A stretch of DNA of 63,591 nt from a virus. The notes under the pieces were generated by a model. It saw only the letters and a list, made by a program, of their open reading frames with translations, had not been told where the DNA came from and did not search any database. The position numbers were made by a program, and so were the translations under genes. This document shows positions 142 through 3,393 of this stretch, piece by piece. The stretch is taken from IMG/VR virus record IMGVR_UViG_3300044835_000051, positions 1 through 63,591 of that record. One strand, 5' to 3'. Position 1 is the first letter of the stretch. Each line of letters starts with the position of its first letter.

Positions 142-2923
142 GGGCACGCTGGGCATCATCGACAGGCAGTCCGACATACGCTCGCTCGAAGGCATGTGGA
201 TGCTGGACGATGATGACTGGAGTTTGATCGCCCAGCTCTGCGACCCGGTGTACCTGAGCGAGCTTCTCTTCAGCGACCCGAACAACGCCACGTACAGCGG
301 GTGTTACCATGTGCGCGACTACCAGTACGTCCTGTTTCGCACCACCACCAACTACGAGGTGCGTCCCTGTTCGAGAGACGTCGGGAAAACTGAAAGCATA
401 AAAGCACGCGCAGTCTCCCACACCTTCCGGCGCCTCGGCGAAGACATGCTCGTCACCGCGCCTGAGCTGCTTCACCTCGAAGGTGTCACGGTGCACATCG
501 AGAATCGCATCACCGAGACCAGGCTCACCCGAGACTTCCTGCGCACCGACGCCCAGAGAACCGGCATCACTCATAAGCCCTTCGCCGTCGTCTTCGCGGA
601 CGGCACCCGTATTCTCGGACGCATACCGCACATCACCGGCCTCGGAGTCAAGTCAATGCACGAGCCCGACCTCGTCATCGACGAAGCCCAGGACTACCCG
701 CAAGCCGGCTGGGTCGAAGTCCACCCGACCGTCATCAAGGACCACACCGGCCCGGACGGCAAATACGACTTCACCTACCTGGCCTACGGCGTCCACGTCG
801 GCGGCACGGGCGGACAGTTCGGCAAGATTTCGACCTCCGGCGCCTTCAAGGTAACGGCAGTTACGTGCTTACAGAAGCCGGGGTGGAACAAGGCCGAGAA
901 AGAGGCGGCCATTGCGATGTACGGCGGTGTCAACACCCCCGACTACCGACGCAACATTCTCGGCGAGAAAGGCCAGTCGCTCTCCCAGTTCTTCGTCACG
1001 TCACATTTGATGGCCTGCTTCCAAGGTGATACACTGGTGGCTACTAGCAATGGACCTCGACCGATCGCGGAGCTGCGAGCCGGCGATCGAGTGCTGAACG
1101 CGAGCGGGGAAGGACCCGTGCTCGCGGCGAGGGCCAGCGAGCACGGGAGGGTGGCCGTTGTCAAGCTCAACGGGGAAGAGATCGTCTGCTCGCCAGAGCA
1201 CCCCTTCTTCTCGGAAGGTGGCTGGTGCCGTGCCGACCAGCTCCGGCGAGGCCAGCGCATCTACCGACAGTCGGAGACAATGCGAGGTCTGCGGGGAGGT
1301 GCTGAAGACGCGCCAGGGCCGCTTCTGCTCCAAGACCTGCGCCGGGAGCTGGCTGGGGAGCACGCGCCGCGGCGGTCCGCCGACACGCAAGAACGCGACG
1401 ATGACACACGTCTGCGAAGCGTGCGGCAAGACGTTCGCGCGGTCGGGCGTGGCGAGGTTCTGTTCGAGGAAGTGCATGGGGAAGGTCTTTGGCGACAGCC
1501 GGCGGTTGGCCCCCAAGAACTGCTGGACGTGTGGGGTGGAGTTCCAGCCAAGGGCGAGCGCTTCACGATATTGCAGTCGCAAATGTCTGGGCGTGAAGGT
1601 GGCCGCAACCAACGCATCGAGACGGGGCATGACGACCCGGTCGATACAGCGCTGGGAGTATGGGGGTTTGCCGGAACCGCAGTATCGTCTCTGGATGGCG
1701 CTCGGCGGTCCGGAGGAGGGGTGGTACGCCCAGTTCTTTATTGCCCCCTTCGATGGGCGCCTTGGCGTTACGAGCTTCACACTCGACCTGGCGCTCCCCG
1801 TGCTGGCGCTTGCGGTGGAAGTGGACGGTCGCGGTCATGGTGTCGCCGCGCAGCGCAAGAAGGACGAGGTGCGCGACGCGTGGCTGGCGAACTCAGGGTG
1901 GACGGTGTTGAGATTTACGAACCGGGAAGTGATGGCTGGGCCGAGCATTGTGGTGAGGGAGATTTGGTCACGCTATACGACCTGACCGTAGGTGGGCACC
2001 CGTCCTTTGCCGTGGGCGACTCGCGTGCTCTGGTTCACAATTGCATGGACCAGGACAAGGAGTCGCGCTACAACACGATCACCTTCAAGGCACAGGAGAT
2101 ACAGTCCGAGGACGTACCGTCGATGATCGCGGAGGACGGCGACGTCGGCGACGTACTCGACCTGCCGGACGGCCTCGGCCAGCAGGTCTACGGCGGCATG
2201 GACGTCGGGCTCGTCACCGACCCGACCGTCATACAGGTATGGGCCGTGCTCCCCGACAGCGCGCGTAAGAGCAGACTCCAGTTGATTCGCATGTTCCACC
2301 TGTGGCGCTTCACCGAACGCCAGATTCGCCAGTGCACCTACCGCATCGCCCGCAAGTATGGGCTCACCCTGCGAGCGTTCGGCCAGGACATCACCGGGCT
2401 CGGTCTGCCGCTCTATCAGGCGATGGAGTCGGACGAGAAGTGCCCGGAGCATCTGAAGGAAGTGTCACGCGGGTACGTGTTCAACGCCAAGGTGCCGGTC
2501 TCGGTGGACAAGAACTACGTGTCCAAGGAAGGCACGAACATGGTCGACCAGTTCGGGCACATCGTCGAAGAGGTGCGTGACAAGTGGACAGGCCGCGTCG
2601 ACCTCGTGGCACGCATGACGATGATCGAAGCGTCGACCCGCTACCTGCGCGGGTTCGTCGACCCCGGTTTCCTCCTCCTGCCGTTCCACGCCGAGCTGAT
2701 CGACGACTTCCAAGGCGAGACCGAGCAGCGCGTGCGAGCGATGGGCGGGGTCAAGAAGAAGCCCAACGCCTTCCACATGCTCGACGCCGCACGAGCGATG
2801 GCGATGGCGTATAAATCGGGGGAGATGGAGGAGGCCGTCTACGCCAGGAACGTCGGGGCGCCAGTGTTTGATCGCGCGGTGGGTGGACCCGGCGTTCTTG
2901 CGGGCCAGGTGAGGCAGGGGTGA
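134..2923 (+). CDS. terL: Terminase large subunit, interrupted by an intein
   Basis: This is the ATP-driven DNA packaging motor and headful/cos nuclease, which docks on the portal. The Walker A variant CSRDVGKT is near residue 80 and Walker B LVIDEAQD near residue 180. YGGMDVGLVTDPT begins the nuclease domain near residue 686, with its metal-binding Asp. An intein fills residues 295-636, between the ATPase and nuclease domains; without it the protein is about 587 residues, a normal TerL size. ATG 134 is preferred over the upstream in-frame GTG at 80 because it overlaps the preceding stop and opens a natural-looking N-terminus (MAEGTLGIID). The stop overlaps the GTG of the next gene (GTGA). 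Activity depends on splicing, or on trans-splicing if the gene is expressed in pieces. Confidence 0.93.
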   Translation: MAEGTLGIIDRQSDIRSLEGMWMLDDDDWSLIAQLCDPVYLSELLFSDPNNATYSGCYHVRDYQYVLFRTTTNYEVRPCSRDVGKTESIKARAVSHTFRRLGEDMLVTAPELLHLEGVTVHIENRITETRLTRDFLRTDAQRTGITHKPFAVVFADGTRILGRIPHITGLGVKSMHEPDLVIDEAQDYPQAGWVEVHPTVIKDHTGPDGKYDFTYLAYGVHVGGTGGQFGKISTSGAFKVTAVTCLQKPGWNKAEKEAAIAMYGGVNTPDYRRNILGEKGQSLSQFFVTSHLMACFQGDTLVATSNGPRPIAELRAGDRVLNASGEGPVLAARASEHGRVAVVKLNGEEIVCSPEHPFFSEGGWCRADQLRRGQRIYRQSETMRGLRGGAEDAPGPLLLQDLRRELAGEHAPRRSADTQERDDDTRLRSVRQDVRAVGRGEVLFEEVHGEGLWRQPAVGPQELLDVWGGVPAKGERFTILQSQMSGREGGRNQRIETGHDDPVDTALGVWGFAGTAVSSLDGARRSGGGVVRPVLYCPLRWAPWRYELHTRPGAPRAGACGGSGRSRSWCRRAAQEGRGARRVAGELRVDGVEIYEPGSDGWAEHCGEGDLVTLYDLTVGGHPSFAVGDSRALVHNCMDQDKESRYNTITFKAQEIQSEDVPSMIAEDGDVGDVLDLPDGLGQQVYGGMDVGLVTDPTVIQVWAVLPDSARKSRLQLIRMFHLWRFTERQIRQCTYRIARKYGLTLRAFGQDITGLGLPLYQAMESDEKCPEHLKEVSRGYVFNAKVPVSVDKNYVSKEGTNMVDQFGHIVEEVRDKWTGRVDLVARMTMIEASTRYLRGFVDPGFLLLPFHAELIDDFQGETEQRVRAMGGVKKKPNAFHMLDAARAMAMAYKSGEMEEAVYARNVGAPVFDRAVGGPGVLAGQVRQG
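1016..2041 (+). other. Intein in the large terminase (342 codons)
   Basis: This is a protein-splicing element. Block A starts with the nucleophile Cys in CFQGDTLVATSNGPR. Block B carries the conserved His in CSPEHPFF. Block F is GDLVTLYDLTVGGHPSFAVG. Block G ends in VHN, followed by Cys as the +1 extein residue. The recognisable Hint parts are about 90 residues at the N-side and 36 at the C-side. The roughly 216 codons between them read as an arginine- and glycine-rich peptide typical of a shadow frame, because the real coding there is in another frame (see the endonuclease at 1158-1985). The junctions predicted here are A|CFQGD and VHN|CMDQD. Confidence 0.9.
1158..1985 (+). CDS. Zinc-finger Vsr-like (EDxHD/DUF559-type) homing endonuclease overprinted in the intein
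   Basis: This is a putative homing nuclease of the intein, in the +1 frame relative to the terminase. Three zinc modules follow one another: CEVCG...FCSKTC, CEACG...FCSRKC and CWTCG...YCSRKC, residues about 42-150. They are followed by a PD-(D/E)XK/Vsr-like domain with SFTLDLALP, AVEVDGRGHG, RDAWLANSGWTVLRFTNREV. The listed start is a TTG at 1158 that only extends through the shadow of the intein N-part. In-frame GTGs at 1218 and 1230 are alternatives, and frameshifting from the intein frame is possible. The C-terminus overlaps intein block F, so the gene ends inside splicing-domain code. Codon-position bias clearly favours this frame between about 1278 and 1955. Confidence 0.82.
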   Translation: MSSSTGKRSSARQSTPSSRKVAGAVPTSSGEASASTDSRRQCEVCGEVLKTRQGRFCSKTCAGSWLGSTRRGGPPTRKNATMTHVCEACGKTFARSGVARFCSRKCMGKVFGDSRRLAPKNCWTCGVEFQPRASASRYCSRKCLGVKVAATNASRRGMTTRSIQRWEYGGLPEPQYRLWMALGGPEEGWYAQFFIAPFDGRLGVTSFTLDLALPVLALAVEVDGRGHGVAAQRKKDEVRDAWLANSGWTVLRFTNREVMAGPSIVVREIWSRYTT

Positions 2924-3393
2924 AACTGTACGGCCGCCAAGGCGGACACGCGCTCGTTGACGACCACCTGTCCGAGTGGCTGGGCGAGTGGCGTTGGCAC
3001 GCCAACTCTCGTGGCTACGTTGTGCGCACTGTCCACGTGTATATCGACGGTCGGCGGAAGTCGCGCACGGTTCTCATGCACCGCGAAATCTTGGGGCTCG
3101 CCTACGGAGACCCGCGGCAGGGCGATCACGAGGACGGGAACAAGCTGGACAACCGCGGGTCCAATCTGCGCATCGCGCACCGCGGGCAGCTCGACAACCA
3201 ACAGAACCGGCAGGGACCGAACAGGAACGGCACCTCCGGCTATCGTGGTGTCACGTCGGACGGGCGGGGCCGGTGGCAGGCGCAGGTCGGGCTTGGCCGC
3301 CGCCTGCATCACCTTGGGCGCTTCGATACGCCCGAGGCCGCAGCAGCAGCCGCCGAAGCCTTCCGCGAGGCCCACATGGAGTTCGCCCGATGA
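2920..3393 (+). CDS. HNH endonuclease with AP2 DNA-binding domain
   Basis: This is a free-standing homing-type endonuclease of 157 residues. The HNH core is DHEDGNKLDNRGSNLRIAH. It is followed by an AP2-like module with GTSGYRGVTSDGRGRWQAQV and LGRFDTPEAAAAAAEAF. It starts with GTG overlapping the terminase TGA (GTGA), directly after an intein-bearing gene, a typical neighbourhood for such elements. It is a paralogue of the gene at 40875-41408. A direct role in packaging (HNH next to TerL, as in HK97) is possible, but the AP2 domain favours a mobile element. Confidence 0.85.
   Translation: MKLYGRQGGHALVDDHLSEWLGEWRWHANSRGYVVRTVHVYIDGRRKSRTVLMHREILGLAYGDPRQGDHEDGNKLDNRGSNLRIAHRGQLDNQQNRQGPNRNGTSGYRGVTSDGRGRWQAQVGLGRRLHHLGRFDTPEAAAAAAEAFREAHMEFAR

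Follow-up and report, generated by a model that had tools for sequence, protein, structure and literature searches.

A phage terminase intein with a homing-endonuclease-like gene overprinted in its +1 frame, and relatives of the same design

The window analysed here is the whole 63,591-nucleotide stretch of IMG/VR virus record IMGVR_UViG_3300044835_000051, and its terminase large-subunit gene contains an intein (1016–2041) overlapped, in the +1 frame, by an open reading frame (ORF) for a putative zinc-module homing endonuclease. The same arrangement recurs in other virus and bacterial sequences, well over a hundred in all. We suggest, with a probability of roughly 0.83, that a single mobile element encodes two overprinted proteins, a spliceable precursor made by read-through and a nuclease made by internal initiation. 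Ribosomes in the terminase frame would read straight through to give a precursor in which the Hint halves fold around a long disordered spacer; the intein would then excise and the terminase exteins be ligated. Other ribosomes would initiate internally in +1 near the end of block B, giving a separate zinc-module/EDxHD nuclease that may cut intein-less alleles at the joined site, the element being copied in by repair. Protein splicing, internal initiation, DNA cleavage and homing are the proposed parts of this reading. The features concerned are:

134–1015, + strand: N-extein of the terminase large subunit (ATPase domain), by homology to L002–L008
1016–2041, + strand: intein of 342 codons in the terminase frame (intein-less allele in L002; Pfam PT-HINT, E 6e-8; predicted Hint fold)
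1016–1279, + strand: N-terminal Hint half, block A with Cys1 and block B with His62 (at about 1172–1210)
1145–1151, + strand: Shine-Dalgarno-like GGGAGGG before candidate start TTG 1158, putative
1158–1985, + strand: homing-endonuclease-like ORF, +1 frame, maximal extent; likely start 1230 or 1158, TGA 1983–1985 inside block F
1213–1221, + strand: Shine-Dalgarno-like GGAAGGTGG before candidate start GTG 1230, putative
1281–1340, + strand: zinc module 1, +1 frame (CEVCG...CSKTC)
1289–1882, + strand: shadow spacer, intein frame, predicted disordered (predicted local distance difference test score, pLDDT, <50 over most of it)
1413–1475, + strand: zinc module 2, +1 frame (CEACG...CSRKC)
1521–1586, + strand: zinc module 3, +1 frame (CWTCG...CSRKC)
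1764–1982, + strand: DUF559/EDxHD-like nuclease core, +1 frame, with D, ExDGxxH, D and GWxVxRFxN (Pfam, invariant residues, fold)
1895–1921, + strand: dual-coded segment, intein strand RVDGVEIYE and nuclease strand GWTVLRFTN
1964–2041, + strand: C-terminal Hint half, block F and block G (HN)
2042–2923, + strand: C-extein of the terminase (C+1, nuclease domain), by homology

The intein and its nested nuclease

The insert at 1016–2041 is confirmed as an intein inside the terminase large-subunit gene, at exactly the coordinates given in an earlier note made from the sequence alone. Terminase L002, whose C-extein is 75% identical, has an empty site (LMA/CMDQDKES against LMA/CFQGDT...LVHN/CMDQDKES in the window; slashes mark junctions), and the insert is also absent from six terminases more distant than L002. 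The terminase gene probably starts at ATG 134; its frame is already open upstream of that point and stays so until the stop at 2923. Intein Cys1 is encoded at 1016–1018, Asn342 at 2039–2041 and the C+1 extein cysteine at 2042–2044; C1, H62, H341-N342 and C+1 are all present, and are invariant across 20 inteins. AlphaFold modelling of the intein frame gave a confident Hint fold for residues 1–88 and 290–342 (pLDDT 92–97), and a spacer, residues 92–289, that is mostly below 50 and read as disordered. The best Foldseek matches of the Hint model include gp41-1, MchDnaB and other inteins (E about 1e-6), and the window intein is predicted to splice. The terminase frame had earlier been taken for a shadow peptide over the whole region: it is indeed open throughout, but residues 290–342, the last ~50 on the spacer side, belong to the Hint fold even though they overlap nuclease coding. 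A PHROGs search named the window terminase only weakly. Directly downstream, a freestanding HNH_3-AP2 homing-endonuclease-like gene (2920–3393, + strand) overlaps the terminase stop by 4 bases.

The nested ORF (1158–1985) matches DUF559 in Pfam (E 1.7e-11) and phage zinc-module/HNH families in PHROGs (6e-12). Its three zinc modules (CxxC...C...C), Vsr/DUF559-like core and termination inside block F, all claimed before, hold up. Residues D, ExDGxxH and D are invariant among 36 relatives. The comparison of this 828-bp ORF with EDxHD/I-Bth0305I-type enzymes, proposed in the earlier note, gave a fold match: the modelled core (pLDDT mostly >90) finds 3HRL and I-Bth0305I (PDB 3R3P) with template modelling scores by target of 0.74 and 0.69 and probability 1.0, at a Foldseek E of only about 0.01. 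The predicted fold matches that of I-Bth0305I, whereas 3R3P is a catalytic domain of 17% identity and the window nuclease has zinc modules and lies within an intein. Family, residues and fold support the assignment of the ORF as a Vsr/DUF559 (EDxHD-like) PD-(D/E)XK nuclease. No nuclease was matched by Pfam in the intein frame of the window, which is where a canonical large intein would carry it. Single-sequence scans with the window nuclease gave no matches; relatives were first reached by loose tblastn, which led to phi673 and Clown.

The same arrangement in relatives

A scan of viral contigs with the nuclease alignment recovered 273 DUF559 relatives, the best 80 of which were analysed; a locus was called nested when the N and C Hint halves lie in one stop-free frame, and loci were made non-redundant at the 85% level. 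Seventy-two of the best 80 are nested (60 non-redundant), all with the nuclease in +1, and eight are without an intein. An in-frame nuclease was found in none of the best 80, nor was any locus with both Hint halves broken by a stop. Four loci scored as having no intein (L030, L033, L051 and L073) were inspected for missed in-frame inteins and proved freestanding or non-intein. For HNH_3, 80 of ~190 viral loci were analysed and comprise 53 nested in +2, 3 in +1, 7 split or shifted and 17 without one or both halves; an HNH scan with A3 added one nested locus only (L187). Of 80 DUF559 hits in bacterial genome assemblies, 19 are nested in +1 and a single one is split; this set partly overlaps the viral one (L219 matches L037, and L203 matches L045, among others). 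One of the nested loci, in Ktedonobacter racemifer DSM 44963 (L220), has an intein frame that scores above the Pfam Intein_splicing cut-off, and the same helicase gene shows the beginning of a second intein. The helicase genes of L029 and L032 carry two inteins each, one canonical with an in-frame LAGLIDADG nuclease and one with a nested DUF559.

Cultured phages share the design. Corynebacterium phi673, Pseudomonas MR14 and Vibrio phages, CP-T1 among them, have helicase inteins at DEC/HH with a Zn-DUF559 nuclease in +1; the phi673 nuclease has matches in 40 phage records, of which eight were inspected. Terminase inteins carry HNH nucleases in +1 in Gordonia Clown and Synechococcus S-EIVl, and in +2 in Rhodobacteraceae LS06, MT838676, Acinetobacter Highwayman and Tetrasphaera TJE1. 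EBPR siphovirus 2 and Vibrio phage 97.13 have a third, HNH-like family in +2 inside their DNA polymerase inteins; it is of the YGGRGI...LDRVxTDGxYEPGN type (L199, 2257–3051; L198, 2272–3024), with only a weak bZIP match in Pfam. In the annotated phage records inspected, the overlap is annotated as host gene only, and the nested nuclease was unannotated in every case checked. In Clown (L009, 3456–3480) the HNH ORF extends 25 bases past the intein into the C-extein before it stops, so that the host gene itself supplies part of the nuclease coding sequence. In two Ruminococcus phage loci (L022 and L023) the HINT domains that resemble the intein query belong to toxin-like proteins; these are probably not inteins and were dropped.

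Among the DUF559 nested inteins, 56 of 60 sit at Walker B DE/C of ATPases, the window and L026 being outliers. L026, a viral contig from a different sample, has the same intein (36% over its length) in a gene for a long tail-like protein, with a +1 nuclease that is 43% identical and stops at the homologous place. These relatives bear on the proposal that a paired indel or one-base assembly error disguises an ordinary in-frame intein nuclease, for which two small indels would suffice to leave and re-enter the frame. The same +1 relation recurs in L026 and 60 non-redundant loci, including cultured phi673, MR14 and CP-T1, and an in-frame relative was not found; with such independent homologues we reject this explanation as practically excluded. 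The earlier note had named in-frame relatives, or a lack of homologues, as grounds for abandoning the arrangement: none of the former turned up, and homologues are abundant. Its description of the locus as unusual is apt when set against textbook inteins. The note treated the case as a single oddity, and the window intein is one member of a large class.

Selection on both reading frames

When the window nuclease protein is kept constant and its synonymous codons are sampled from phage usage, 4.35 terminase-frame stops are expected and none is seen (P about 0.01; 0.004–0.03). At the 48 codon pairs where a third-position T would make a stop, T is never used, against 28 of 232 overall, and the third frame has 7 stops. 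Much stronger figures come from the relatives, in which expected stops were obtained by permuting synonymous codons within each nuclease, AT-rich genomes included. The 60 non-redundant DUF559 loci have 0 intein-frame stops against 517.6 expected (third frame, 815 against 737), and 40 HNH loci have 0 against 102.3 (third frame, 761 against 755); the HNH nested set is partly defined by stop absence, which slightly favours its figure, and the DUF559 figure is free of this. Eleven loci tested individually also point to required read-through of the intein frame. We conclude that selection keeps the intein frame open through the nuclease region.

Synonymous and nonsynonymous substitutions could be compared in both frames, as the earlier note had proposed, in Vibrio phages. 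In the nested region of 1.088.O and K391, 34 of 40 substitutions fall at nuclease third positions (32 synonymous and 6 nonsynonymous in the nuclease frame, 5 and 32 in the intein frame), and the flanking N block shows normal intein-frame constraint. The nuclease frame is thus under purifying selection. The nested region of this pair is 5.6% diverged against about 20% in the extein, and that of K391 and 1.194.O 1.5% against about 17%, which matches the expectation for a recently transferred element. This mobility signature is an indirect sign of homing, and the nested nuclease may well be a homing endonuclease that cuts the empty allele and spreads the intein.

Two further explanations meet this evidence. 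The nuclease could be a decaying relic, with the intein frame open by chance or composition, as high GC content reduces stop frequency and the window alone gives a P of only about 0.01. Yet the catalytic and zinc residues are intact, nuclease-frame substitutions are biased to synonymous, and stops number 0 against 518 expected, AT-rich genomes included, with the third frame as control; the relic reading, very improbable for the window, is contradicted for the nuclease family as a whole and was rejected. Removal or skipping of the nuclease region at the RNA level, by an intron or ribosome bypass, would accord with the frequent housing of phage nucleases in group I introns. A skipped segment, however, need not be stop-free, and the Hint halves and the conserved HN/C junction are present, on which grounds we also rejected this possibility, giving it scarcely any credence.

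Stop codons would also limit the choice of frame. In a +1 overlap, an intein-frame stop requires a nuclease codon ending in T, for which a synonymous C always exists, so that no nuclease sequence is forbidden. In a +2 overlap, an intein-frame stop is unavoidable wherever Met comes directly before Ile, Met, Thr, Asn or Lys. Forced-stop pairs involve 0 of 95 Met in nested +2 HNH nucleases, against 5/27 in those without a full intein, 3/21 in split loci and 6/20 in +1; the zero holds by definition in this stop-free set, and the informative part is the presence of such pairs in relatives outside it. The DUF559 nucleases, all in +1, contain 143 such pairs in 60 proteins (at least one in 55 of 60).

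The two frames meet at the C-terminal motif of the nuclease, where G-W-x-V-L-R-F-x-N is read as R-V-[DE]-x-V-E-[VI] in the intein frame, in the strand preceding block F. In the window, 1895–1921 encodes RVDGVEIYE (intein strand 292–301) and GWTVLRFTN (nuclease strand 225–230), so that one set of bases codes a beta-strand of both proteins. The motif Leu is TTR in 44 of 51 loci, against 265/674 elsewhere in the nucleases (p 4e-11), and the motif Arg is AGR in 47 of 60, against 266/779 (p 3e-11); codon choice in the nuclease therefore serves the intein frame here, and the nuclease C-terminus is under dual constraint. Nuclease and intein trees are correlated (Mantel rho 0.46, p 0.001), meaning that the two largely travel together.

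Translation of the nuclease and relation to split inteins

The earlier note had left internal starts and frameshifting side by side, and start and Shine-Dalgarno signals favour the former. An open start codon in the nuclease frame lies near block B in 58 of 60 loci; Shine-Dalgarno matches of at least 5 nt precede starts in 27/100 cases in the nuclease frame against 8/100 in the intein frame (p 6e-4), and the codons GAC GAG GTT in block B of helicase inteins place GAGG 6–9 nt upstream of an ATG. A programmed frameshift near the end of block B would instead yield a nuclease fused to the N-extein and N-intein. This is geometrically possible, with the nuclease ORF overlapping the block B region in many loci, and start and Shine-Dalgarno signals vary among loci. 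Against it stand the near-constant presence and enrichment of those signals in the nuclease frame, the recurrent ATG with GAGG 6–9 nt upstream in helicase inteins, and the split relatives, which must initiate the nuclease separately. An internal start fits better, and we regard frameshifting as unlikely.

Several observations weigh against read-through combined with internal initiation. The start candidates in the window are GTG or TTG only, which makes its internal start uncertain, the Shine-Dalgarno enrichment is modest, and in 2 of 60 loci no start was found near block B. Block B of the window intein has Cys in place of the usual Thr. The window's own stop-avoidance P (0.004–0.03) is modest because the genome is GC-rich, the strong statistics coming from relatives, and the window and L026, with 95, 65 and 65 residues identical across the three frames, have diverged too far for substitutions to give a clear frame contrast.

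Inteins are defined as in-frame elements, with the nuclease, if any, within the spliced protein. Canonical LAGLIDADG inteins (PI-PfuI; L197) resemble the window in having Hint halves that flank a homing nuclease, mobility and conserved sites; their nuclease, however, is inside the spliced polypeptide, whereas that of the window would be a separate protein from another frame. Also comparable are the fractured genes reportedly described by Dassa and colleagues in 2009, in which split-intein halves flank Vsr-like (EDxHD) homing endonuclease genes. These share with the window a Vsr-like nuclease with its own frame between intein halves, and are found mainly in phages and DNA-metabolism genes. They differ in having two ORFs with the nuclease in the intergenic gap, whereas in the window host gene and intein form one continuous ORF (134–2923) that the nuclease overlaps.

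In four HNH relatives (L129, L150, L152 and L155) block B is followed by a stop and then by the nuclease, and the C-half begins at an ATG of its own. Nested, split and fused states are connected. The suggestion in the earlier note of an intermediate between continuous and split inteins is only partly supported: a passage, in either direction, is plausible, some HNH relatives being split by stops, but the arrangement is stable and widespread. Two other split inteins were seen: in Pectobacterium phage Amona (L024, 1575–4282) a LAGLIDADG ORF overlaps both halves of a helicase intein, and in Streptococcus phage GXN1 (L196, 941–3559) the N half of a terminase intein carries an in-frame fusion to a DUF559-like domain, with no gene annotated there.

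Out-of-frame HNH insertions in phage methylases (ShiLan) have been described with no detectable splicing domain, and their persistence and translation were posed as questions (PMC11855218). The ShiLan type and the window have in common an out-of-frame homing-endonuclease ORF, an open host frame, zinc fingers, a disjunct distribution and omission from annotation. The window differs in its DUF559/EDxHD rather than HNH nuclease and in the complete Hint domain around it, which explains how the host protein survives. No account of a true intein with an out-of-frame nuclease inside it turned up in the literature searched, the search not covering a 2025 preprint on actinobacteriophage inteins (10.1101/2025.01.02.630785).

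We think it reasonably probable that inteins whose homing endonuclease is overprinted in another frame form a separate class of mobile element, widespread and not described before, which arose independently in three or more nuclease families (DUF559 in +1; HNH in +2, some in +1; a third, HNH-like, in +2), with the frame limited by stop-codon logic and a nuclease core strand doubling as an intein strand. Freestanding nucleases, continuous inteins and split inteins may commonly be linked through this state. Overprinting is apparently the usual arrangement for Zn-DUF559 nucleases among the best matches lying in inteins, and it shows a route by which a non-LAGLIDADG nuclease can occupy an intein without fusion. 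Surveys that score intein nucleases in the host frame only miss nested ones and label such inteins nuclease-free. The long dual-frame overlaps in cultured phages allow tests of overlap evolution, and nested inteins are a splicing-based counterpart to the ShiLan puzzle. The nested state offers a concrete step toward fractured genes and natural split inteins.

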